From Halanaerobium praevalens DSM 2228 (GTDB taxonomy: Bacteria > Bacillota > Halanaerobiia > Halanaerobiales > Halanaerobiaceae), in NCBI RefSeq assembly GCF_000165465.1, contig NC_017455.1:1116001-1180000 (forward strand): a stretch of 64,000 nt of DNA, in the 5' to 3' direction. Both the position numbers and the translations under genes were made by a program. Below, one piece after another: positions 43,735 through 62,420 of this stretch (position 1 is its first letter; each line of letters starts with the position of its first letter). The notes beneath the pieces are model-generated. The model did not search any database. It was not told where the DNA came from and saw only the letters and a program-made list of their open reading frames with translations.

Positions 43735-44736
43735 TTATTTTAAGCGTTTCCATTTAGCATTTCTTCCTTTTCCTAGAACTTCTATTATATTATCTTTTTT
43801 TAATTGTCTCAAAACTCTATCAATAGTTGAATCAGATACATCAGGACAGGCATTTCTAATATCATCTTTAGAAAAAGTTCCTATAATATTCTTTACTGCC
43901 TGTTCAACCCTATAGCTTTTATTACCTTTCTTTGACTTCACCATACCTACACGATCTTCAAATTCTTTATAGGCTGCTAAAAGTGTTCCCAAAAAGTATT
44001 CTAACCAGAAAAACAAATTATGTTTTCCCTCATGCCAGCCCATGGAAGATTTATTTAATGTTTCATAATAACTTGATTTACTGTCTTCTATGATCTTTTC
44101 TAAACTTATATATCTTCCTACTTTATGATCATATTTATATAATAATAGTAATGTTAATAATCTTGATATTCTTCCATTTCCATCATTAAAAGGGTGGATA
44201 CAAAGAAAATCTAAGATAAAGCTTCCAATTAAAATTAATGGTTCTATATTTTGTTCCTGTATTTCATTGTTTAAAAAATTACAGAGAGAATCCATGGCAG
44301 TGGCAGTATTTGATGCAGCAACCGGTTTAAATCTAACAAATTTTTCACCATTAGGTAGGATCTCACCAATAATATTATTCTGACTTTTCCAACTTCCACC
44401 TTTTTCAGATATATATTTATACATATCACGATGTAACTGTAAAATTATATTTGAAGTTACAGGTATTGCATCATAAGAAGTATGAATAGTATTTAAAACA
44501 TCTCTATAACCTGCTATTTCTCCTTCTGATCTTTCTCTAAGATTGGTATCATCTTTCATTATTTCTTTTAGTCTTTTATCAGTAATTACAATTCCTTCAA
44601 TACTGTTTGAAGCTTTTGTACTCTTTATAACAGCGACTTCTTGAAGCTTTTCTAATATTTGTGGTGACTGTTCTATATATAAATCCTGTTTTCCCTTATA
44701 TTCGTTTATTTTACCAATTAATTTAACAATATTCAT
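43735..44736 (-). CDS. Fic-domain protein (cassette)
   Basis: 333 residues: an N-terminal inhibitory helix motif SNSIEG (S/T-x3-E-G, class II), the Fic core with catalytic HPFNDGNGRISR (about 181-192), and a C-terminal winged helix (KDDIRNACPDVSDSTIDRVL). Fic enzymes transfer AMP or related groups to proteins. Its stop lies 11 bp from site 1. The upstream side was disrupted: an IS3 element begins 30 bp before the start codon, and the weak ribosome site suggests lost upstream sequence. Confidence 0.9.
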   Translation of the reverse strand: MNIVKLIGKINEYKGKQDLYIEQSPQILEKLQEVAVIKSTKASNSIEGIVITDKRLKEIMKDDTNLRERSEGEIAGYRDVLNTIHTSYDAIPVTSNIILQLHRDMYKYISEKGGSWKSQNNIIGEILPNGEKFVRFKPVAASNTATAMDSLCNFLNNEIQEQNIEPLILIGSFILDFLCIHPFNDGNGRISRLLTLLLLYKYDHKVGRYISLEKIIEDSKSSYYETLNKSSMGWHEGKHNLFFWLEYFLGTLLAAYKEFEDRVGMVKSKKGNKSYRVEQAVKNIIGTFSKDDIRNACPDVSDSTIDRVLRQLKKDNIIEVLGKGRNAKWKRLK

Positions 44737-44829
44737 TGGTATATTTAACTTTTTTAATCTATCATTGACCCTCCCCCAATTTGTAGGACACTGAGTTAAG
44801 ATATATAATAAACTCAGGAGGTGCCCAAA

Positions 44830-45129
44830 ATGGGAAAAAGAAGAAGTTACACTGAAGAATTCAAAAGAGATGCTGTTGAACTTAGCATAAATTCAAATAA
44901 GACAGTACAAGAAATAGCTGATGATCTAGGAATAAATTACGGTAATTTAACCCGCTGGCGTAAAGAATATAGAGATAGTGGTGAACATGCTTTTCCTGGT
45001 AATGGAAAGCAAAAACTAACACCTGAACAACAAAAAATAAAAGAGCTTGAAGATGAACTTAGAGAAACTAAATTAGAGCGTGATATATTAAAAAAAGCAG
45101 TGGGCATCTTTTCGAAAAAACCGAAGTAA
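44830..45129 (+). CDS. IS3-family transposase OrfA
   Basis: 99 residues: a helix-turn-helix ([24 protein letters not shown]) and a leucine-zipper tail ([22 protein letters not shown]). AGGAGG lies 8 bp before ATG 44830. A run of A's near 45115-45121 is a candidate slippage site for producing the OrfAB fusion that carries out transposition in this family. Confidence 0.93.
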
Positions 45130-45167
45130 TATACGGTTTTATCCGGGACCACAGAGATCAATTTCCT

Positions 45168-46211
<1,044 letters not shown>

Positions 46212-47874: not shown

Positions 47875-47979
47875 GGCTAACGTTCCTGGGATTTAAGAAG
47901 TTCATGAGGCTTAGGGCGACTGCCCTTGCCGAATGAATTTGGATGGAGCGATAGCGGAATCTTCAATCCCATGTTATGC
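47875..47979 (-). repeat. attC-like site 3 (divergent, shortest)
   Basis: Boundaries GGCTAAC / GTTATGC, only 105 bp. The stem continues as TGGGATTtaaGAAG / CTTC-AATCCCA instead of the class-A GCG/CGC, so pairing is kept while sequence changes. Confidence 0.75.
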
Positions 47980-48007
47980 GCAGTTTCATTTTATTAGTTA
48001 AAAAAAA

Positions 48008-50119
48008 TTATTCTTTTGAAAAAACTAATTCATTACTCAAGTCTGAAACATACTTAAAGCTATTTATTATTTCTTTTAGAGATTTTATTTCTAACCGTTC
48101 TAATCTTTTTAAAGTTCTATAATTAATTTTTAAAGATTCATTATTAATAGAGCCATCATCTTTAAAAGGATGCGCTACTTTATTTCTTAATTCATGAATT
48201 TCAGAAAAGTTTTTATAACTAATAGGAAATTTATTCACAAAAAAATTCATATTTAAAATATTACCATACTTTTTTGGTTGCTTTACTTCTTCTCCACATA
48301 TTTCTAAAGTTTTTTTAACAATTAAATGATTAAAAAGATCAATTTTAATTAACCAAATAATCGGTTCTACTTCCTTATATTTTTCTGATTCTTTTAAATC
48401 ATACTTTAGACGATTTAATTCATCTTCTGAAAAATAAGACAATCTAAAATATTCTTCTCCATTCTTGATATCATATTTCTTTAAAAAATCAAGTATATAA
48501 CTAACTGGAAAACCAGTTTTGTCTTCTGCTATATTTTTTATAAATGTATTATTTGAAACTTTAATATCTATTGATACTTCACTATTAAAACAACTATTAA
48601 TACATTCATCATAATATAATCTCAAACCGTTTAATGCAATAAGATTATTTTCTGATTTAATCATTTTAGTTAATTTTGAATTCTTAATACTAGTTTGATT
48701 AATATTATTATATTGTAATGAAATTCGTTTTCTTTCTACAATTAAGTTTTTATTTTGATTTAAATTATTTAACCAATCAGGTTCATTATGATATATCCAA
48801 TCTAATAAGAAATAACTTATGTACCAATCTTCACTATTATAATAATACTTATCAATTATTTTATAATCAAATTTAATTATTTCATAGAAAAACTCAAAAA
48901 ATACAGCAATGATATATTTATAGATTATTTTTTTCTTATATATTAAATTATTAACCCATTCAATTACTTTTTTATCATTAATAAAATATTTAGATAAATA
49001 AAAACATACAGCTTCAATATAAGGGTATAAGTCTTTATATTTGTCTATTAATAAATTTTTTAATTCCTCATTCCCCTTTACTTTAAACAGTCCAAACTTG
49101 ATAAGAGTTTTATCATAATTTCCTGATTTTAAATTTTTTATTAATCGTTTTGTATACTTTCGATTATTACTTGGACTTAATTCTCCTTTTTCTTTATACT
49201 CAGATGCTACTCTTGAAAAATCTTTATTGGTTTTTATGTAAAGATGTATATTATCTACTTTTTTTACTTTAGTTTTGTTAGCTTGAGGAATAAATCCTAA
49301 TTCTCTAGCTAACAAATCCAAATAGACAATATTTTTTTGAGCAAGATATTTGTCTTTAGTAAAAATCCTTATATCATCAACATATCGCATATATCTAATA
49401 TTTCTATTTTCTAAAACTAATTTTCTCATTTTTTTATCTATATTATGTAAACAAATTTCTGCAATAAAACCAGAACCTAATGGACCTTGGGGAATTCCAT
49501 GTTTAAATCCTTGATTTTGAGTTTGATTTTTATTCCATGATAATAATTGAGAAGATAATATATCAATAATTTTCTTATCAATATTCTTTTCTTTTAAAAG
49601 ATTTTTAACCAAATAATGATCAACTGTATCGTAAAAAGAGGCTAGATCAAACTCAGTAATATATTCATAACCATCATTATAATGTTGTTTGGTTAAATTC
49701 TCATACTTTTTCCATTGTTGTTTCCAATGTTTATAGAAAAAAATTTTATTTTCATTATTAGTCTTGTTATAAATATTACCAAAAACAAAATGATTATAAT
49801 AACTATGAAAACTTTTATAAAATTTTTCCGCTAGTAAATTAACTATAGCTTGATAAACTAATAAATCAATAAAATTCAATACTGAAATTGGTCTAACAAG
49901 TCCAGTTGATTTAGGAAAGTATATTTTATAAGATTTATTAGGCTTATATAAGTCTTCTTTTAATAAATGAATCAAAGTATTAATATTTTTTTCAAGATCA
50001 AGTCCAAAATTATATAAATCATTCCAATAAAGATTTTTATAATAATCTCTAGATGTCGTTTGTAGTCTTTTAAAAGCAATATATATATTTTCATATGAAA
50101 TTAAATCATCAAAACTCAA
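48008..50119 (-). CDS. Reverse transcriptase with C-terminal HEPN-like motif (cassette)
   Basis: 703 residues starting at TTG 50119, six bases after GGAGGG. An upstream ATG at 50224 only translates attC-like site 4 and is rejected. RT motifs: FDLASFYDTVDH (motif A, Asp158), HGIPQGPLGSG (motif B) and RYVDDIRIF (motif C, Asp248-Asp249). There is no maturase or HNH domain, so it is not a group II intron protein. The last 65 residues contain RNKVAH (Arg645, His650), the R-x4-H signature of HEPN RNases. RT plus HEPN resembles AbiA-type phage-defence polymerases of the UG/Abi group; which subgroup it belongs to needs a tree. Confidence 0.8.
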   Translation of the reverse strand: MSFDDLISYENIYIAFKRLQTTSRDYYKNLYWNDLYNFGLDLEKNINTLIHLLKEDLYKPNKSYKIYFPKSTGLVRPISVLNFIDLLVYQAIVNLLAEKFYKSFHSYYNHFVFGNIYNKTNNENKIFFYKHWKQQWKKYENLTKQHYNDGYEYITEFDLASFYDTVDHYLVKNLLKEKNIDKKIIDILSSQLLSWNKNQTQNQGFKHGIPQGPLGSGFIAEICLHNIDKKMRKLVLENRNIRYMRYVDDIRIFTKDKYLAQKNIVYLDLLARELGFIPQANKTKVKKVDNIHLYIKTNKDFSRVASEYKEKGELSPSNNRKYTKRLIKNLKSGNYDKTLIKFGLFKVKGNEELKNLLIDKYKDLYPYIEAVCFYLSKYFINDKKVIEWVNNLIYKKKIIYKYIIAVFFEFFYEIIKFDYKIIDKYYYNSEDWYISYFLLDWIYHNEPDWLNNLNQNKNLIVERKRISLQYNNINQTSIKNSKLTKMIKSENNLIALNGLRLYYDECINSCFNSEVSIDIKVSNNTFIKNIAEDKTGFPVSYILDFLKKYDIKNGEEYFRLSYFSEDELNRLKYDLKESEKYKEVEPIIWLIKIDLFNHLIVKKTLEICGEEVKQPKKYGNILNMNFFVNKFPISYKNFSEIHELRNKVAHPFKDDGSINNESLKINYRTLKRLERLEIKSLKEIINSFKYVSDLSNELVFSKE

Positions 50120-50154
50120 TATTAACCCTCCAATAAAAAATAAAATGAAATTGC

Positions 50155-50290
50155 GTATAACGTTACTGGGATTTGCGCTTGTGCCTGATTCCGTCAGGAA
50201 CTGGCATAAAGCTTGCTTTTTCATATCCGTGATTGGTTATTAGCCTGCAAGCTTTATGACAGAAGGCATGGCGCCAATCCCATGTTATAT
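50155..50290 (-). repeat. attC-like site 4 (class A)
   Basis: Boundaries GTATAAC / GTTATAT. It lies between the RT and the 235-residue gene. The RT segment ends pair over TTTCATTTTATT / AATAAAATGAAA. Confidence 0.88.
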
Positions 50291-50294
50291 GAAG

Positions 50295-51027: not shown

Positions 51028-51210
51028 ATATAACGTATCGAGCATTTGCGACGTGGCTGTCCTGTTCTTTAGGTTGGCGCATCTCTTGCCTTCCCTCAAC
51101 ATTTTCAGCTTAAACAGCTGCAAGAGATATGACAAAAGCCATGTCCTGAAGGGCGACGGTTTTTTTACAGTTAAGCTACAAGCTCAGTCAGCGCCAATGC
51201 TCTGTTATGT
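51028..51210 (-). repeat. attC-like site 5 (class B)
   Basis: Boundaries ATATAAC / GTTATGT, 183 bp. Inner stem AGCATTtGCG / CGC-AATGCT replaces TGGGATT / AATCCCA; further stems CATCTCTTG / CAAGAGAT and GTGGCT / AGCCAT. Confidence 0.88.
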
Positions 51211-51528
51211 GCTGTAATAACTTGCTAAGTAAAAATTTATACTTAACTTCAACTTATTTACTTCTGATATTAATTCTTAACCAGCTAAAAAAGTTCGTTA
51301 ACTCTTTACTATATTACATCTTCACGAAGTGCGTGAAGATCTAACAGTGACTAATTTATTTTTTGATATATGCAAAAAATTTTGTAAATTAAAATCCCCC
51401 AAGTTTATTGTTAAAACTTTATAAAAAATATTGATTATTATTTCCTTAATGGAGAAAGTTAATTCCTTCTAGTTAGCGATTCACCAACCCTTCTTTTATC
51501 TTTTTTGCCGATATTCAGTTATTATGGC
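51211..51528 (-). repeat. ORF-less cassette copy b
   Basis: About 318 bp without a gene. Ends GTGC-tg-TAATAAC / GTTATTA-tg-GCAC. The palindrome CTTCACGaagtgCGTGAAG is at 51320-51338. The minus-strand -10-like element is weaker here (TTTAAT). Confidence 0.85.
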
Positions 51529-51720: not shown

Positions 51721-52023
51721 TTATCTCCCCTTTTCAAGTATTCTTTTATATGCACTTATATAAACAACTTGATCTTCTCTTTTACCAACAGACCAAACCA
51801 TGACTTCATCCTCGTTCAATATTTGATAAACAACTCTATATTTTTTCCGATAAAAGTAGATTTTTAAACAACCTGATAGATCGATTCCACTTTTATTTCC
51901 AAGTGGTTTTCCTAATTCAGGTGATCTTTTAATTTTATTAAGTGTGCTTTTAAGTCTTGGTTTAACACTTCCATCTAAATTTTCAATATCATTTTTAACT
52001 TCAGGATGAAATTTAAGCTTCAT
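51721..52023 (-). CDS. RelE/ParE-family toxin (cassette)
   Basis: 100 residues with the RelE fold: KLKFHPEVKNDIENLDGSVKPRLKSTLNKI, KIYFYRKKYRVVYQI and VMVWSVGKREDQVVYISAYKRI. RelE toxins cleave mRNA in the ribosome; ParE types hit gyrase, and sequence alone does not decide. The start is ATG 52023; a TTG codon lies immediately before it. It follows the Phd/YefM-type antitoxin gene by 20 bp, forming a complete module on the minus strand. Confidence 0.87.
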   Translation of the reverse strand: MKLKFHPEVKNDIENLDGSVKPRLKSTLNKIKRSPELGKPLGNKSGIDLSGCLKIYFYRKKYRVVYQILNEDEVMVWSVGKREDQVVYISAYKRILEKGR

Positions 52024-52043
52024 CAACCTAAGCCCCCTAAAAT

Positions 52044-52343
52044 CTATTCTTTATCTAATAAATCCATTATTTCTTTTTCGCTTACTGTATCTTTAAGATC
52101 AAAGTTTTCTTTTCTTTTGGCTATAATCTCTTCAATGTGGGCATCTTCTAATTGATCTTCCAGAAATTCTATTTTTTCTAGTAACATTTCATATTCCTCA
52201 ATATCCATCATAATACCTTCAATATCATTATTTCTGGTAATAAATAGCGGGGACTCTTTTGTTTTATCTAACATTTTACTAAAATTACGAACAATTTCAG
52301 AAGATGAGACCATATGATCTCTATCAATTCTTAAAGTAACCAT
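52044..52343 (-). CDS. Phd/YefM-family antitoxin (cassette)
   Basis: 99 residues with the Phd/YefM N-terminal DNA-binding part (SSSEIVRNFSKMLDKTKESPLFITRNNDIEGIMMDIEEYEMLLE) and an acidic C-terminal tail that wraps the toxin. ATG 52343 after GGAGGTGC is preferred to ATG 52358. It should repress its own promoter. Confidence 0.88.
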   Translation of the reverse strand: MVTLRIDRDHMVSSSEIVRNFSKMLDKTKESPLFITRNNDIEGIMMDIEEYEMLLEKIEFLEDQLEDAHIEEIIAKRKENFDLKDTVSEKEIMDLLDKE

Positions 52344-52394
52344 TATCTGCACCTCCATAAATTAAAATATTTCATAAATGATTATCTTAATTAA

Positions 52395-53435: not shown

Positions 53436-53617
53436 GTATAACGTCCTGAGCATTTGCGACGTGGCTGTCCTGGTCTTTAGGTTGGCGCATCTCTTGCTGA
53501 TCATCAGCATTTTCAGTTCAAAAAATTGCAAGAGATGTGACAAAAGCCATGTCCCGAAGGGCACGGATATTTCACAGCCACATATCATACCCAGTTAGCG
53601 CTAATGCTCTGTTATGT
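53436..53617 (-). repeat. attC-like site 8 (class B)
   Basis: Boundaries GTATAAC / GTTATGT. AGCATTtGCG / CGC-AATGCT type stem. Long open frames that cross it on both strands are by-products of the hairpin and are not annotated. Confidence 0.87.
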
Positions 53618-53892
53618 GCTGTAATAACTTGCCTCGTTAAAATTTGTACTCAACTTCAACTTACTGAATTCTGATATTAATTCTTCATGAAGTTCGTGAA
53701 GATCTAACAGTGACTAATTTACTTTTTGCTATATGTAAAAACCTTTGTAAATAGTAATTTCCCAAATTTATTGTTAACATCTACTAAAAAATATTACTTA
53801 ATATTTCCTTAATGGAGAAAGTTAATGAATTATAGTTAGCGATGCCCAAACCTTATCTCTTATCTTTTTAGCCGATTTTTAGTTATTATTGC
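53618..53892 (-). repeat. ORF-less cassette copy c
   Basis: About 275 bp. The palindrome is altered (CTTCATGaagttCGTGAAG, near 53688-53706). The minus-strand TATAAT is replaced by TACTAT. It is the most diverged full-length copy. Confidence 0.8.
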
Positions 53893-54658: not shown

Positions 54659-54994
54659 ATGTATAAAATTAAGTATTATGCAAAAAATAATAAATCTCCA
54701 GTAATTGAATTTATTAAAAAACAGTCAGCTAAAGAAAAAGCTAAAATTCTAAGAGAAATAGAACTTCTAGAAGAATTTGGTCTATTCCTTGGTATGCCCC
54801 ATCTTAAAAAGTTAAAAGGATATGATGATCTCTGGGAATTACGAATAAAGCATAGTTCTAATATATTTAGGGTTTTCTTTTTAAATTATCAGGATGGTAT
54901 CTTCGTTCTTTTGCATATCTTTAAGAAGAAATCTAATAAAACTCCACAGAGAGAAATAGATATTGCGCTTAACAGACTTAATTCTATCAAGTGA
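54659..54994 (+). CDS. HigB/Gp49-like RelE-superfamily toxin (cassette)
   Basis: 111 residues with the phage-derived Gp49-like/HigB pattern: KIKYYAKNNKSPVIEFIKKQ, LGMPHLKKLKGYDDLWELRIKHSSNIFRVFFLN and LLHIFKKKSNKTPQREIDIAL. It is a likely ribosome-dependent mRNase. Its 3' end runs up to the antitoxin gene. It is on the plus strand, opposite to most cassette genes, but has its own promoter. Confidence 0.9.
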   Translation: MYKIKYYAKNNKSPVIEFIKKQSAKEKAKILREIELLEEFGLFLGMPHLKKLKGYDDLWELRIKHSSNIFRVFFLNYQDGIFVLLHIFKKKSNKTPQREIDIALNRLNSIK

Positions 54995-55357: not shown

Positions 55358-55534
55358 ATATAACGTCCCGAGCATTTGCGACGTGGCTGTCCTCCGGTTG
55401 GCACATCTCTTGCTATTAATCTGCATTTTAAGTTTAAGCAGCTGCAAGAGATGTGACAAAAGCCATGTCCCGAAGGGCGACGGCCGTTTTACTGCCAAAT
55501 TTATAACTAAGTCAGCGCCAATGCTCTGTTATGT
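55358..55534 (-). repeat. attC-like site 11 (class B)
   Basis: Boundaries ATATAAC / GTTATGT. Its right half and the following ORF-less cassette are nearly identical to site 15 and copy f. Confidence 0.88.
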
Positions 55535-55854
55535 GCTGTAATAATTTACTGCGTTAAAAGTTACTCACTACTTCAACTTACTGAATGCTGATTTTAACTC
55601 TTAACCAGCAGATAAGTTCATTAACTCTTTATTATATTAAATCTTCACGAAGTGCGTGAAGATCAAACAGTGACTAATTTACTCTCTGATATATGTAAAT
55701 ATCTTTGTAAATTATAATCATCCAAGTTAATTGTTAAAACCACTGAAAACTAGCAATTATTATTTTCTTCATTTGCAGGAGTTAATCCATATCAGTTAGC
55801 GATGAACCAACCCTATCACTTCTCTCTTTTTTGCTGATGTTCAATTATTATTGC
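55535..55854 (-). repeat. ORF-less cassette copy e
   Basis: About 320 bp, nearly identical to copy f. Palindrome CTTCACGaagtgCGTGAAG at about 55642-55660; minus-strand TATAAT intact. Confidence 0.87.
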
Positions 55855-57306: not shown

Positions 57307-57558
57307 ATGCCATCTTTACAAGTTAGAGATTTACCAGAACATCTTTATCAAGAAATTGTCCAATTGGCTGAAGCTGATAGAAGGAGTATTACCCAAGAAA
57401 CAATAGTATTATTGGAAAAAGCTTTAAATATAGAAAAAGAAAACAAAAAACGTCGTCAACAACTTCTAAAAAAAATACAAGAAGAAACCCGTAAAGAACA
57501 GAAAGAGGAAGAAATATTAGATCCTGTAAAATTAGTTAGAGAGGATCGTGAAAGATGA
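57307..57558 (+). CDS. vapB: VapB-type antitoxin (cassette)
   Basis: 83 residues with a ribbon-helix-helix N-terminus (LQVRDLPEHLYQEIVQLAEADRRSITQETIVLLEKAL) and a charged C-terminal tail (KKIQEETRKEQKEEEIL) for toxin binding. ATG 57307 lies nine bases after AAAGGAG; TTG 57301 is less likely. It overlaps vapC by 4 bp. Confidence 0.85.
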   Translation: MPSLQVRDLPEHLYQEIVQLAEADRRSITQETIVLLEKALNIEKENKKRRQQLLKKIQEETRKEQKEEEILDPVKLVREDRER

Positions 57559-57959
57559 GAATTACAATTGATGTAAGTGCAGCTGTTGAAGTAGTAATGG
57601 GTGGTAAGCGTCAAGAAGAAATTGTAAATATATTAAATGATGCAGACTGGGTAATTGCTCCTTCTCTTTTTATTTATGAAGCTAGTAATACTTTGTGGAA
57701 ATATCATGAATACCAAGATTATAGCAAAGAAGATATTATGAAAAAAATTGAATATCTTTATAAAATGGTAGACCAATTTATTGATGCAAAAGATATTTTT
57801 GAAGAAGCTTTGCCACTTTCATGCAAGATAAGTCATCCTGCTTATGACGCTATGTATTTAGTTACAAGCAGGCGTAAAAATGCTACTTTAGTAACTCTAG
57901 ATAAAAGATTAGTTAGAGCAGCTAAAAGTATTGATGTTCCAGTAGCATTAATTACTTAG
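57555..57959 (+). CDS. vapC: VapC-type PIN-domain toxin (cassette)
   Basis: 134 residues with PIN acidic residues in TIDVSAAVE (Asp6), FIYEASNTLW, AYDAMYLV (near 95) and VTLDKRLV (near 113). VapC toxins are Mg-dependent RNases, often cutting tRNA. The stop codon overlaps the outer inverted repeat of the segment (AGCCCAA-t-GTCG). It is on the plus strand, opposite to the majority. Confidence 0.88.
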   Translation: MRITIDVSAAVEVVMGGKRQEEIVNILNDADWVIAPSLFIYEASNTLWKYHEYQDYSKEDIMKKIEYLYKMVDQFIDAKDIFEEALPLSCKISHPAYDAMYLVTSRRKNATLVTLDKRLVRAAKSIDVPVALIT

Positions 57960-58914: not shown

Positions 58915-59094
58915 GTATAACGTCCCGAGCATTTGCGACGTGGCTGTCCTGTTCTTTAGGTTGGCGCATCTCTTGCTCATCATCATTTTCAGCTTAAACA
59001 GCTGCAAGAGATGTGACAAAAGCCATGTCCCGAAGGGCGACGGCCGTTTTACTGCCAAATTTATAACTAAGTCAGCGCCAATGCTCTGTTATGT
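58915..59094 (-). repeat. attC-like site 15 (class B)
   Basis: Boundaries GTATAAC / GTTATGT, AGCATTtGCG / CGC-AATGCT. The right half matches site 11 almost base for base. Confidence 0.88.
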
Positions 59095-59414
59095 GCTGTA
59101 ATAATTTGCTGCGTTAAAAGTTACTCACTACTTCAACTTACTGAATGCTGATTTTAACTCTTAACCAGCAAAAAAGTTCATAAATTCTGTACTATATTAA
59201 ATCTTCACGAAGTGCGTGAAGATCGAACAGTGACTAATTTACTCTCTGATATTTGTAAATATCTTTGTGAATTATAATCATCCAAGTTAATTGTTAAAAC
59301 CACTGAAAACTAACAATTATTATTTTCTTCATTTGCAGGAGTTAATCCATATCAGTTAGCGATGAACCAACCCTATCACTTCTCTCTTTTTTGCTGATGT
59401 TCAATTATTATTGC
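59095..59414 (-). repeat. ORF-less cassette copy f
   Basis: About 320 bp, nearly identical to copy e. Palindrome CTTCACGaagtgCGTGAAG at about 59204-59222; minus-strand TATAAT intact. Confidence 0.87.
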
Positions 59415-59547
59415 ACATAACGTTACTGGGATTTGCGCTTGTGCCTGGTTCCGTTAGGAACTGGCGTAAAGCTTGCTTTTTCGTATCAGTGATTGGTTAG
59501 CCTGCAAGCTTTATGACAGAAGGCATGGCGCCAATCCCATGTTATAT
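59415..59547 (-). repeat. attC-like site 16 (class A)
   Basis: Boundaries ACATAAC / GTTATAT with standard class-A stems. Confidence 0.88.
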
Positions 59548-59575
59548 GACGTACTTATCTATAAAAATCAAAAGA

Positions 59576-61153
59576 TTATTGTCTAGTTAATTTTTTAATA
59601 AAAAATTTATCAACATTATCTAGATTTATTATCATTATAAATAAAGTTTTTTCATTTTCTGATATATATAAATATCCTTTCTGGTTATCTTTTTTAAACT
59701 TCTCTGCACTACTAGAAAAATCAAATTTTTTAGTATACTTTTCTAAAGATGCTGCTCTATTAAACATTTCTCCATTAAACTTACATTCTTTACTACCCTG
59801 ATACCAAAAACCTTGTATTATTTTTCCGGATTGCTTAATCTTTAATTCTTTTTCATTTTCAAATTTCCATAAACCGTCAATGATTATATTTTTATCAATA
59901 AGATTGAAATACGCTTTAGAATAATTTCTTAAAAACCTTTGTTTTATACCAGCATTTTTTATAATTTTTTCTTTTCTTTTTTCTTCATTATTTTCTAAAT
60001 TTCTTAATCTATTAAGCTGATAACCTACATTTTCATGAGTATTATCTTCTAGCATCGCTTTATTAAGAACATCAGAAGCTTCTTTATAAAATCCAGAATT
60101 TATATAATCTTGAGCTAAATTTGCTGATGATAAAGTATTATTACATTTTTTTATAGATTTTTTATAGGCATCAATTTTCATTCCAGCTAAGTTTAATTTT
60201 CCATAAATTACACCAATATTGTTTAAAGCATAATTATACTCAAAATCAGAACTTACTAAATTATCATAATGTAATAATGATAAATCATTAAATTCGCTTA
60301 AATTACTATATCCATACGCCATATTAAATATTTTTGATTTTTCTGATTTGAATTCCAATGCTTTTTCTAAAGCAAACACTCTTAACTCTTTTTCATCAGC
60401 TTTTTTATAAAGCGAAGCAAGTGACTTATAATATATAAATAAAATATTTTCATCTGTTTCATTAGTTATTAATGACATGATCTTTTTATAAGCTTTTTTA
60501 TTATTTAATTCAAAAACACACTCTGAACTAAAAATCATATCTTTTGCTTTTTGCAATAGATCAGTCGATTTTTCTGCTGCTTTTTCAAAATAATCTTTTG
60601 CTTTATTTAATCTATTATTTTTTTTATAACAGAAACCAATAATTCTCAATATATATTCTTCAACCTTAGGGTATTCATTATTTTTTTCCAACTTTTTTAA
60701 TTTTTCTAAAGCTTCTAAATCGCCTAAAAAGTAACTGAAATAAAGATAAATTGCAGTGTCTTCTGTTTTTTCTAAACTTTCTGGTTTCTCTTCACTCATT
60801 TTTTTATATAAGTCATCTAATGACTCTTTATCTTTATCCAAGAATGCTATCTGTAATTTATCTTTCCAATTCTTATCTTCTTCTTCATATTCTAAATTAA
60901 TATCCATTTCTTCAGTTTCCATTAAACTAGAATCATCTTCTTGTGAAATATCTACTTCTTCACTAGTATTATTTTGTGAATCATTTTTGCTTTTTTTAAC
61001 TTCTACTTCAGCATCTCTCATTTTAATTTTAAAATCTTTTCCTGTTAAAATCATTTTTAGTTCTTTTCTAAATATAATGATAAGTATAAATACACAGATT
61101 ATTAGAACTATTAACCATGATTCACCTATTGAAGTTATTAAGTCTTTAGACAT
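59576..61153 (-). CDS. Membrane-anchored TPR-repeat protein (cassette)
   Basis: 525 residues starting at ATG 61153, eight bases after GGGAGG; upstream ATGs have worse spacing. One N-terminal membrane helix (about 13-28), a basic then very acidic linker (about 29-85), a long helical region with TPR-like units (about 85-410, e.g. RIIGFCYKKNNRLNKAKDYFEKAAEK), and a C-terminal beta-rich part (GLWKFENEKELKIKQSGKIIQGFWYQGSKE) resembling a MORN-like or lipocalin-like sheet. The helix topology puts the bulk in the cytoplasm. The function is not recognised; it is large for a cassette gene. Confidence 0.6.
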   Translation of the reverse strand: MSKDLITSIGESWLIVLIICVFILIIIFRKELKMILTGKDFKIKMRDAEVEVKKSKNDSQNNTSEEVDISQEDDSSLMETEEMDINLEYEEEDKNWKDKLQIAFLDKDKESLDDLYKKMSEEKPESLEKTEDTAIYLYFSYFLGDLEALEKLKKLEKNNEYPKVEEYILRIIGFCYKKNNRLNKAKDYFEKAAEKSTDLLQKAKDMIFSSECVFELNNKKAYKKIMSLITNETDENILFIYYKSLASLYKKADEKELRVFALEKALEFKSEKSKIFNMAYGYSNLSEFNDLSLLHYDNLVSSDFEYNYALNNIGVIYGKLNLAGMKIDAYKKSIKKCNNTLSSANLAQDYINSGFYKEASDVLNKAMLEDNTHENVGYQLNRLRNLENNEEKRKEKIIKNAGIKQRFLRNYSKAYFNLIDKNIIIDGLWKFENEKELKIKQSGKIIQGFWYQGSKECKFNGEMFNRAASLEKYTKKFDFSSSAEKFKKDNQKGYLYISENEKTLFIMIINLDNVDKFFIKKLTRQ

Positions 61154-61184
61154 ATACATTTCCTCCCTATAAATTAAGTATGTC

Positions 61185-61316
61185 ATATAACGTTACTGGG
61201 ATTTGCGCTCGTGCCTGATTCCGTTAGGAACTGGCGGAAAGCTTGCTTTAATATTTCTTGCTGCATAATATTGCAAGCTTTATGACAGAAGGCATGACGC
61301 CAATCCCATGTTATGT
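61185..61316 (-). repeat. attC-like site 17 (class A)
   Basis: Boundaries ATATAAC / GTTATGT. Flanking segment ends pair: TGAC-g-TACTTA / TTAAGTA-t-GTCA for the TPR cassette and TGAC-g-TATCAT / ATGATA-t-GTCA for the Fic cassette. Confidence 0.9.
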
Positions 61317-61331
61317 GACGTATCATGGTTT

Positions 61332-62420
61332 TTATCTTAATAAATCGAGTAAATTATAGTAATAATATTTTCTATTTCTCATTTTATTATCTGAAAATAT
61401 TACTTTCTCATCTTCAAGAGTGGAAAGATATCTTCTACATGTAGAATCATGTATTCCTGTTAAGGAACTTATTGTTTTCACATTAAATATTGGCTTTTGA
61501 AACATTGCTTTAATTAGGTCTACTACATTAGTACTATTTATTAAATTCATTGCATTTTCTAAATCTCTTTCATATAAATTATCAATTTCTTCAATTAGTT
61601 CAATATTTTTGAGTACTTGTTTATTTACGCTTTGCAGGAAGAATTTAATCCATTCATTCCAACCATTACCCTCTTTTCTTGTTCCATTCAGCAATCTATA
61701 GTATTTATGTTTATCTTTTTCTAATACTTCACTGATAAATAAATTGGGAGAATTTATGAGATTTACATCATATAAATACAGCGGGATTAATATACGACCA
61801 ATTCTACCATTACCATCTAAAAATGGATGAATGGTTTCAAATTGAGCATGTATTATTGCTATCCTGACTAAAGATTGTAAATTATCATTTGGATTATTAA
61901 TATAATTTTCTAGGTTAGACATATAGGAATCGACTAATTGTGGCTGAGGTGGCACAAAAGTAGCTGTTTCTAAAGTACATCCTTCTGGGCCTATGAAATT
62001 TTGAATAGAACGATATTCTCCAGGAGCTCTATTTTGACCTCTAACACCATTACTCATTAAAATTTCATGTAATTTTTTGAATAGACGTGTTGATATAGGA
62101 TATTTTTCTAAAGCACTCTCACCATAGTTTAATGCATCATAATAATTCAAAACTTCTTGAGCATCATTGTTTTTTTCATTTTTATCAATATCAAATTCTA
62201 AAACTTCATCAAAAGTTACTTGTGTACCTTCAATTTTGCTGGACTGTACAGCTTCCTGTAAACTAAAAGGAGTAATAAGAAAATATTCATTAACTTTAGA
62301 TTTTTTTAACATAATCTGATATTTGCCTACATTTGTACTTGCATTAATTAGTTCATTATAAAATTCCATAGGATTAATTTGTTCTTCTATTGGTAATTCA
62401 AAGGGTTTAAAAGGTTTCAT
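61332..62420 (-). CDS. Fic-domain protein 2 (cassette)
   Basis: 362 residues: a Fic_N-like start with the inhibitory motif SSKIEGTQ (about 66-73), the catalytic HPFLDGNGRIGR (about 197-208), and a C-terminal winged helix (FNVKTISSLTGIHDSTCRRYLSTLEDEKVIF). It is organised like the first Fic cassette but clearly different in sequence. All catalytic residues are present, so AMP transfer with autoinhibition is expected. GAGAGGATG precedes the ATG. Confidence 0.92.
   Translation of the reverse strand: MKPFKPFELPIEEQINPMEFYNELINASTNVGKYQIMLKKSKVNEYFLITPFSLQEAVQSSKIEGTQVTFDEVLEFDIDKNEKNNDAQEVLNYYDALNYGESALEKYPISTRLFKKLHEILMSNGVRGQNRAPGEYRSIQNFIGPEGCTLETATFVPPQPQLVDSYMSNLENYINNPNDNLQSLVRIAIIHAQFETIHPFLDGNGRIGRILIPLYLYDVNLINSPNLFISEVLEKDKHKYYRLLNGTRKEGNGWNEWIKFFLQSVNKQVLKNIELIEEIDNLYERDLENAMNLINSTNVVDLIKAMFQKPIFNVKTISSLTGIHDSTCRRYLSTLEDEKVIFSDNKMRNRKYYYYNLLDLLR

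Follow-up and report, generated by a model that had tools for sequence, protein, structure and literature searches.

The 64,000-nt stretch analysed here (the window), from the genome of the halophile Halanaerobium praevalens DSM 2228, encodes a reverse transcriptase (RT) that is a well-supported, rare member of the catalogued UG19 group, and from which we infer a role in defence. We consider it most likely (probability about 0.6) that this RT-solenoid-HEPN protein, encoded alone in a mobile cassette, defends against phage on its own and couples its DNA synthesis to a HEPN domain that forms a dimer. The analysis establishes the family, the predicted domain layout, the invariant catalytic residues in both domains, purifying selection on all three domains in relatives and the one-gene unit.

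The UG19 reading frame

The gene lies on the minus strand, with a TTG start at 50119 and a stop at 48008. A longer, 738-aa reading was rejected, as its start falls inside the upstream attC and relatives begin at the 703-aa position.

48008..50119, minus strand: UG19 reverse transcriptase ORF, 703 aa, TTG start
50126..50131, minus strand: Shine-Dalgarno GGAGGG, six bases upstream of the TTG
49616..49651, minus strand: RT motif A FDLASFYDTVDH, residues 157-168, D158 invariant in alignment A2
49373..49384, minus strand: RT motif C YVDD, residues 246-249, D248 and D249 invariant in alignment A2
48170..48187, minus strand: HEPN motif RNKVAH (R645-N-K-V-A-H650), R and H invariant in 11 UG19 proteins

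A preliminary description of this DNA had listed intact RT motifs (motifs A and C above and motif B, IPQGPLGSG, residues 209-217) and a C-terminal RNKVAH; all of these are in place, and its numbering of Asp248/Asp249 and His650 is correct. The ORF is more than a chance reading frame, because it matches Pfam RVT_1 (E=9e-19) and RT_UG19 (E=3e-167) and because 11 divergent homologues all retain R645 and H650.

Assignment to the UG19 group

Every membership test that we made places the protein in UG19, one of the UG groups reportedly defined by Mestre et al. 2022. The RT_UG19 model (PADLOC PDLC03756) matches residues 2-687 of 703 with 556 bits, compared with 186 bits for the next-best PADLOC model, UG21, and also matches all 11 aligned homologues. 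Members of the RT_UG19 family share the length, domain order and tree placement of the window protein, which has R-x4-H where the ten other aligned members have R-x6-H and also differs in lying within an attC-bounded cassette. In an IQ-TREE phylogeny of RT domains, compared with UG21, DRT8, UG25/35 and nine group II RTs, the window protein and 11 other UG19 rows fall together (12 rows, support 96/86), so that UG19 is monophyletic and apart from the group II RTs. The nearest UG groups in the tree, also among the best HMM scores, are UG21, whose example (L033) has no R-x4-6-H end, and DRT8, which forms a long branch.

Several other identities were considered. Placement in an RT tree had been proposed as a check, and grouping of the window protein with group II RTs was rejected by the AU test (p=2.7e-5); the NCBIfam group II maturase model gives 95 bits, below its 300-bit cut-off, and no Rfam family, and hence no intron RNA, was matched anywhere in the 64-kb window. 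A retron was rejected on the same Rfam result and because the gene is separated from the flanking attC sites by just 41 nt on its upstream side and 26 nt on its downstream side, in agreement with the earlier reading that no structured intron or retron msr/msd adjoins the gene. A DGR RT appears unlikely from sequence comparison because the UG19 match is full-length.

The earlier comparison with AbiA-like RT-HEPN proteins of phage defence stood as to layout and failed as to membership. AbiA, from Lactococcus, resembles UG19 in combining an RT, a helical solenoid and a C-terminal HEPN with R-x4-6-H. It is nevertheless a separate HMM family: a genuine AbiA sequence reaches 627 bits against its own model, with no UG19 match reported; AbiA is absent among the 25 best PADLOC families for the window protein; and HEPN_AbiA_CTD finds no match in the window protein at E up to 1. 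AbiA also lacks the PQG motif, whereas UG19 keeps a canonical motif B (IPQG). A sister relationship of UG19 and AbiA gained no support and was not rejected in the AU test (p=0.13), AbiA being a very long branch.

RT core and alpha-solenoid

A full-length AlphaFold2 model, built with the 11-row alignment A2, has a mean pLDDT of 80 and divides the protein into three parts.

49229..50119, minus strand: RT fingers and palm, residues 1-297, from Pfam RVT_1, the AlphaFold2 model and structure comparison
48590..49222, minus strand: predicted HEAT-like alpha-solenoid replacing the RT thumb, residues about 300-510, from the model and structure matches
48050..48466, minus strand: predicted HEPN domain, residues about 552-690, from a separate model (pLDDT 85) and VIA-align (Z 7-10)

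The RT core has its highest single-domain structural scores with group II RTs. Over longer stretches, residues 10-501 align to DRT6 (9wy8) with Z 19.4 and rmsd 4.3 over 433 residues, and DRT4 (UG15; Z 18.1, rmsd 5.0, 435 residues) and AbiK (Z 15.6, rmsd 4.6, 434 residues) align similarly. With Abi-P2 included, these four proteins, in all of which an alpha-solenoid replaces the thumb, give Z 15-19 and rmsd 4.3-5.0 over 394-441 residues, up to about residue 501 of the model; their likeness to UG19 ends at about residue 500-540 of the model, before the HEPN domain. AbiA (8oz7) aligns to the whole model (residues 2-689, Z 17.6), with an rmsd of 19 because the domains are placed differently. As modelled, the UG19 protein is thus of the UG/Abi class-1 type, with an RT and a predicted alpha-solenoid instead of a thumb. 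Class 1 UG/Abi RTs are generally homo-oligomers that make template-free, protein-primed DNA (PMC13275509). The linker between RT and solenoid contains no tyrosine conserved in alignment A2, and we therefore name no priming residue.

The C-terminal HEPN domain

The HEPN fold is common in RNA-cutting toxins. Structure prediction had been suggested for an all-helical HEPN end, and the C-terminal 166 residues folded alone (pLDDT 85) do form an all-helical, four-helix HEPN core. The best VIA-align match of this domain is 2hsb (Z 10.2, 3.5 A, 120 residues), followed by HepT 6m6w (Z 9.5, 3.1 A, 113 residues), sacsin HEPN (Z 9.4, 3.2 A, 125 residues) and AbiA 8oz7 (Z 9.3, 3.2 A, 132 residues); Csm6, RnlA and MtlR are also found with lower scores. 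HEPN or HEPN-like proteins fill almost all of the 24 best rows; the highest-scoring protein that is clearly unrelated has Z 7.0. Other methods returned less: Foldseek alone was weak for this domain (best HEPN E 0.55), Pfam and sequence profiles did not recognise the HEPN end of UG19, and a profile comparison against the AbiA HEPN matched just the motif itself, with a probability under 1%. Helical bundles score easily and a fold match by itself is no proof, so the HEPN claim rests on VIA-align together with the invariant motif.

The earlier reading of R-x4-H as a HEPN motif is borne out by its conservation and position. After A405, the only residues invariant in 11 UG19 proteins from several phyla are G619, R645 and H650, making the arginine and histidine two of only three invariant positions in the last 300. 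Both sit where the third core helix ends (the full model puts this helix at residues 632-649), and it is at the end of helix 3 that HEPN active sites, R-x4-6-H, lie (PMC3710099). The ten other aligned UG19 proteins have R-x6-H where the window protein has R-x4-H, and both spacings fit the HEPN definition. Since R645 and H650 are invariant across these phyla, the HEPN end belongs to every UG19 protein examined and is not an innovation of the H. praevalens cassette. HepT-type HEPN toxins resemble the UG19 end in fold and in the position of R-x4-6-H; the UG19 HEPN differs in being fused to a polymerase, with no MNT antitoxin partner in the cassette.

Relatives, rarity and transfer

Full-length relatives were found in Bacteroidota (Aquimarina, Tenacibaculum and a Chryseobacterium MAG), in Alphaproteobacteria, and in MAGs of Acidobacteria, Bacillota and Chloroflexota. 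Identity to the window protein across the 11 aligned UG19 proteins is 21-37%. None turned up when 84,980 genomes were scanned with the single sequence; a search with a two-row alignment yielded 11 loci. UG19 relatives are rare: among samples of about 400 genomes from each of three phyla, one relative in addition to the window genome reached 1e-150 or better in its own phylum, the second phylum had a single genome apart from the seed that passed 1e-60, and the third had the seed alone. Viral contigs contained no UG19 relatives, phage records held distant RTs only, and the best matches of the plasmid search were group II RTs.

Between close relatives in other genomes, dN/dS (NG86) is 0.03-0.10 in the RT, solenoid and HEPN parts taken separately, with pairs whose synonymous sites are saturated giving no value. 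Among the relatives compared, the HEPN part is therefore kept about as strictly as the rest. The UG19 genes of Aquimarina (L051:321-2429) and Tenacibaculum (L053:5995-8103) are 91% identical in DNA and have unrelated flanks; homology covers the ORF with 44 bp before it and 6 bp after it, and stops there. This is a recent single-gene transfer. Homology also mostly ends at the ORF in the alphaproteobacterial comparisons, with one pair (L054/L059) sharing a longer syntenic stretch.

A one-gene cassette bounded by attC-like sites

The gene is followed by an attC-like hairpin and preceded by that of the upstream cassette. Integron cleavage takes place between G and TT, and the cassette can be delimited accordingly.

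47881..50160, minus strand: whole cassette, one ORF, 2,280 bp, from the upstream R' box TT to its own R' box G, read from the sequence
50155..50292, minus strand: attC-like site of the preceding cassette, single-strand fold z = -6.2, alignment A4
47875..47981, minus strand: attC-like site belonging to the RT cassette, of a shorter-stemmed type with GATTGAAG, conserved ends, z = -2.5

These hairpins are part of a series of 26 that extends from 46212 to 70326 in window coordinates. The layout is that of an integron cassette, a lone ORF with an attC hairpin behind it, within a run of similar sites that all point the same way, and the carriage of a single gene of about 2.1 kb as an integron-type cassette, proposed earlier, holds. 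With up to one mismatch, TAACATGGGATTGNCG has 40 matches in the H. praevalens genome. They share one strand and, with few exceptions, fall into two clusters, near 1.16-1.19 and 1.52-1.54 Mb. A reversed control has none in that genome, and the pattern recurs in 12 of 14 genomes from the family. An origin outside the genus was considered for the odd attC of the RT cassette and dropped, as the GATTGAAG type recurs in several other Halanaerobium genomes. We also observed a second, longer attC-like class (179-185 bp, ending in GAGCATT) interleaved with the 135-bp class.

51028-51212: longer attC-like site
53436-53619: longer attC-like site
55358-55536: longer attC-like site
58915-59096: longer attC-like site

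The RT cassette has 41 nt of spare sequence ahead of the start codon, and another 26 nt separate the stop codon from attC. Given this, the absence of any Rfam match in the window and the end of homology at the gene edges, a separate ncRNA or partner gene for the UG19 RT is unlikely, in contrast to DRT2, DRT9 and DRT10. Those three systems copy an RNA template.

The adjoining genes, an Sll1717-type P-loop ATPase and a protein without matches, each occupy a cassette of their own. Elsewhere in the cassette region are two different SoFic-type Fic proteins (43735-44736 and 61332-62420) and toxin-antitoxin-like cassettes (51721-52358, 54659-54994 and 57555-57959), among which are a RelE/ParE-like pair recognised by eye and, by Pfam, a HigB/Gp49-like protein and a PIN-domain protein. 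A cassette for a 536-aa TPR-like protein, with flanking attC, seemingly occurs twice in one array (58915-61318 and L072:639-3044).

The linked recombinase

Several Halanaerobium genomes encode a tyrosine recombinase of 361-368 aa directly upstream of the first sites and on the same strand, with its 3' end facing the cassette array.

L072:8388-10730 (genome 1188388-1190730): XerA-like recombinase linked to an array
L084:461-1546: XerA-like recombinase linked to an array
L086:4969-6063: XerA-like recombinase linked to an array

Its best family is XerA-like NF040815, and intact homologues in the genus score 191-196 bits with the IntI model, which has a cut-off of 265. Where IntI4 has residues 180-239 (about 59), the place of the IntI-specific insertion, the recombinase has about 21 residues; no IntI with this insertion was found beside the array. 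The term "integron-type" thus describes the sites well and the recombinase poorly, the latter being XerA-like rather than a standard IntI and, in H. praevalens, split by an IS3-family element. IS3-family copies with identical proteins lie in the recombinase gene (L072:8713-9893) and in the cassette array (44821-46001), and the insertion in the recombinase gene probably immobilised the array. Throughout Halanaerobium, attC-like cassette arrays are linked to such a recombinase, and the pair may represent an integron-like system outside IntI. The N-terminal extension of the recombinase is weakly HARP-like. The cassette adjoining it encodes a 621-aa protein (L072:6337-8202) with no Pfam match, in which YRYRNEIVHNAHY forms an R-x4-H suggestive of another HEPN.

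Proposed function and alternatives

AbiA makes protein-primed, untemplated DNA, dimerises through its HEPN domain and defends against phage (PMC11077055). By analogy we expect UG19 to work like AbiA without being AbiA, with similar priming and synthesis. Our literature search found no phage test of UG19 proteins reported. For UG19 we infer defence, protein priming, dimerisation, RNase activity and a trigger as follows. The HEPN end would dimerise the enzyme, and the RT core would make DNA, probably using one of the protein's own residues as primer, because the solenoid stands where a thumb would otherwise grip the template-primer duplex. If a phage disturbed this state, perhaps through binding to the DNA product or changing it, the growth of the infected cell or of the phage would be blocked, either by the DNA product or by HEPN cutting of RNA.

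In one alternative, HEPN is purely structural, dimerising the polymerase and perhaps binding its product, and the DNA made by the RT is the toxic or protective agent. We hold this alternative tentatively, at somewhat less than even odds. It has a precedent in AbiA, whose HEPN, described as the mark of AbiA among the Abi polymerases, is required for DNA synthesis and dimerisation and showed no RNase activity in vitro on several RNAs although its R-x6-H is intact (PMC11077055), and the UG19 model has the same layout. The R-x4-6-H motif is for this reason no proof of activity. Against a structural role alone, no residues in the C-terminus of UG19 are better conserved than the arginine and histidine, and such a role does not obviously need both. 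By comparison with AbiA, then, RNA cutting by the UG19 HEPN is favoured by the invariance of both catalytic residues and disfavoured by the AbiA result.

It seems doubtful that the UG19 enzyme copies an RNA template like DRT2, DRT9 and DRT10, with HEPN processing or destroying RNA. Templated synthesis is possible in itself, since UG19 keeps the IPQG motif B and its RT core scores closest to the template-copying group II RTs, and either the mRNA of the gene itself or some RNA of the host could serve as template. The cassette nevertheless offers only 41 + 26 nt of non-attC sequence, homology between close relatives ends at the gene edges and Rfam finds no match.

We regard it as improbable that the gene is ordinary silent cargo in a fossil array: the array's integrase is indeed broken by the IS3-family copy in H. 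praevalens, but the ORF is intact, has a good ribosome-binding site and has relatives under strong purifying selection in other genomes. A group II intron or retron RT that has lost its RNA partner and has no defence role would fit the group II scores of the RT core, yet is very hard to reconcile with the AU rejection, the low maturase score, the conserved solenoid and HEPN, and the purifying selection in relatives.

A more specific version of the defence reading, which we offer as speculative and unlikely in its full form, is that UG19 acts as an immune switch contained in one protein: DNA that the RT builds on itself would restrain an active HEPN ribonuclease until phage action releases it. 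The switch would here be spread by an integron-like system whose recombinase lacks the IntI insertion. If true, this would be the first demonstration of an RT whose own chain includes an active HEPN RNase effector.

Because HEPN occurs throughout UG19 with its catalytic residues kept across several phyla, the family provides a second test case for RNA cutting as opposed to dimerisation only. The attC borders define the transferable unit as one gene in about 2.3 kb, convenient for cloning and phage challenge, and the combination of a XerA-like recombinase with attC-like arrays bears on the origins of integrons. With a HEPN end found across its family and a cassette to itself, the window protein is a good test object.
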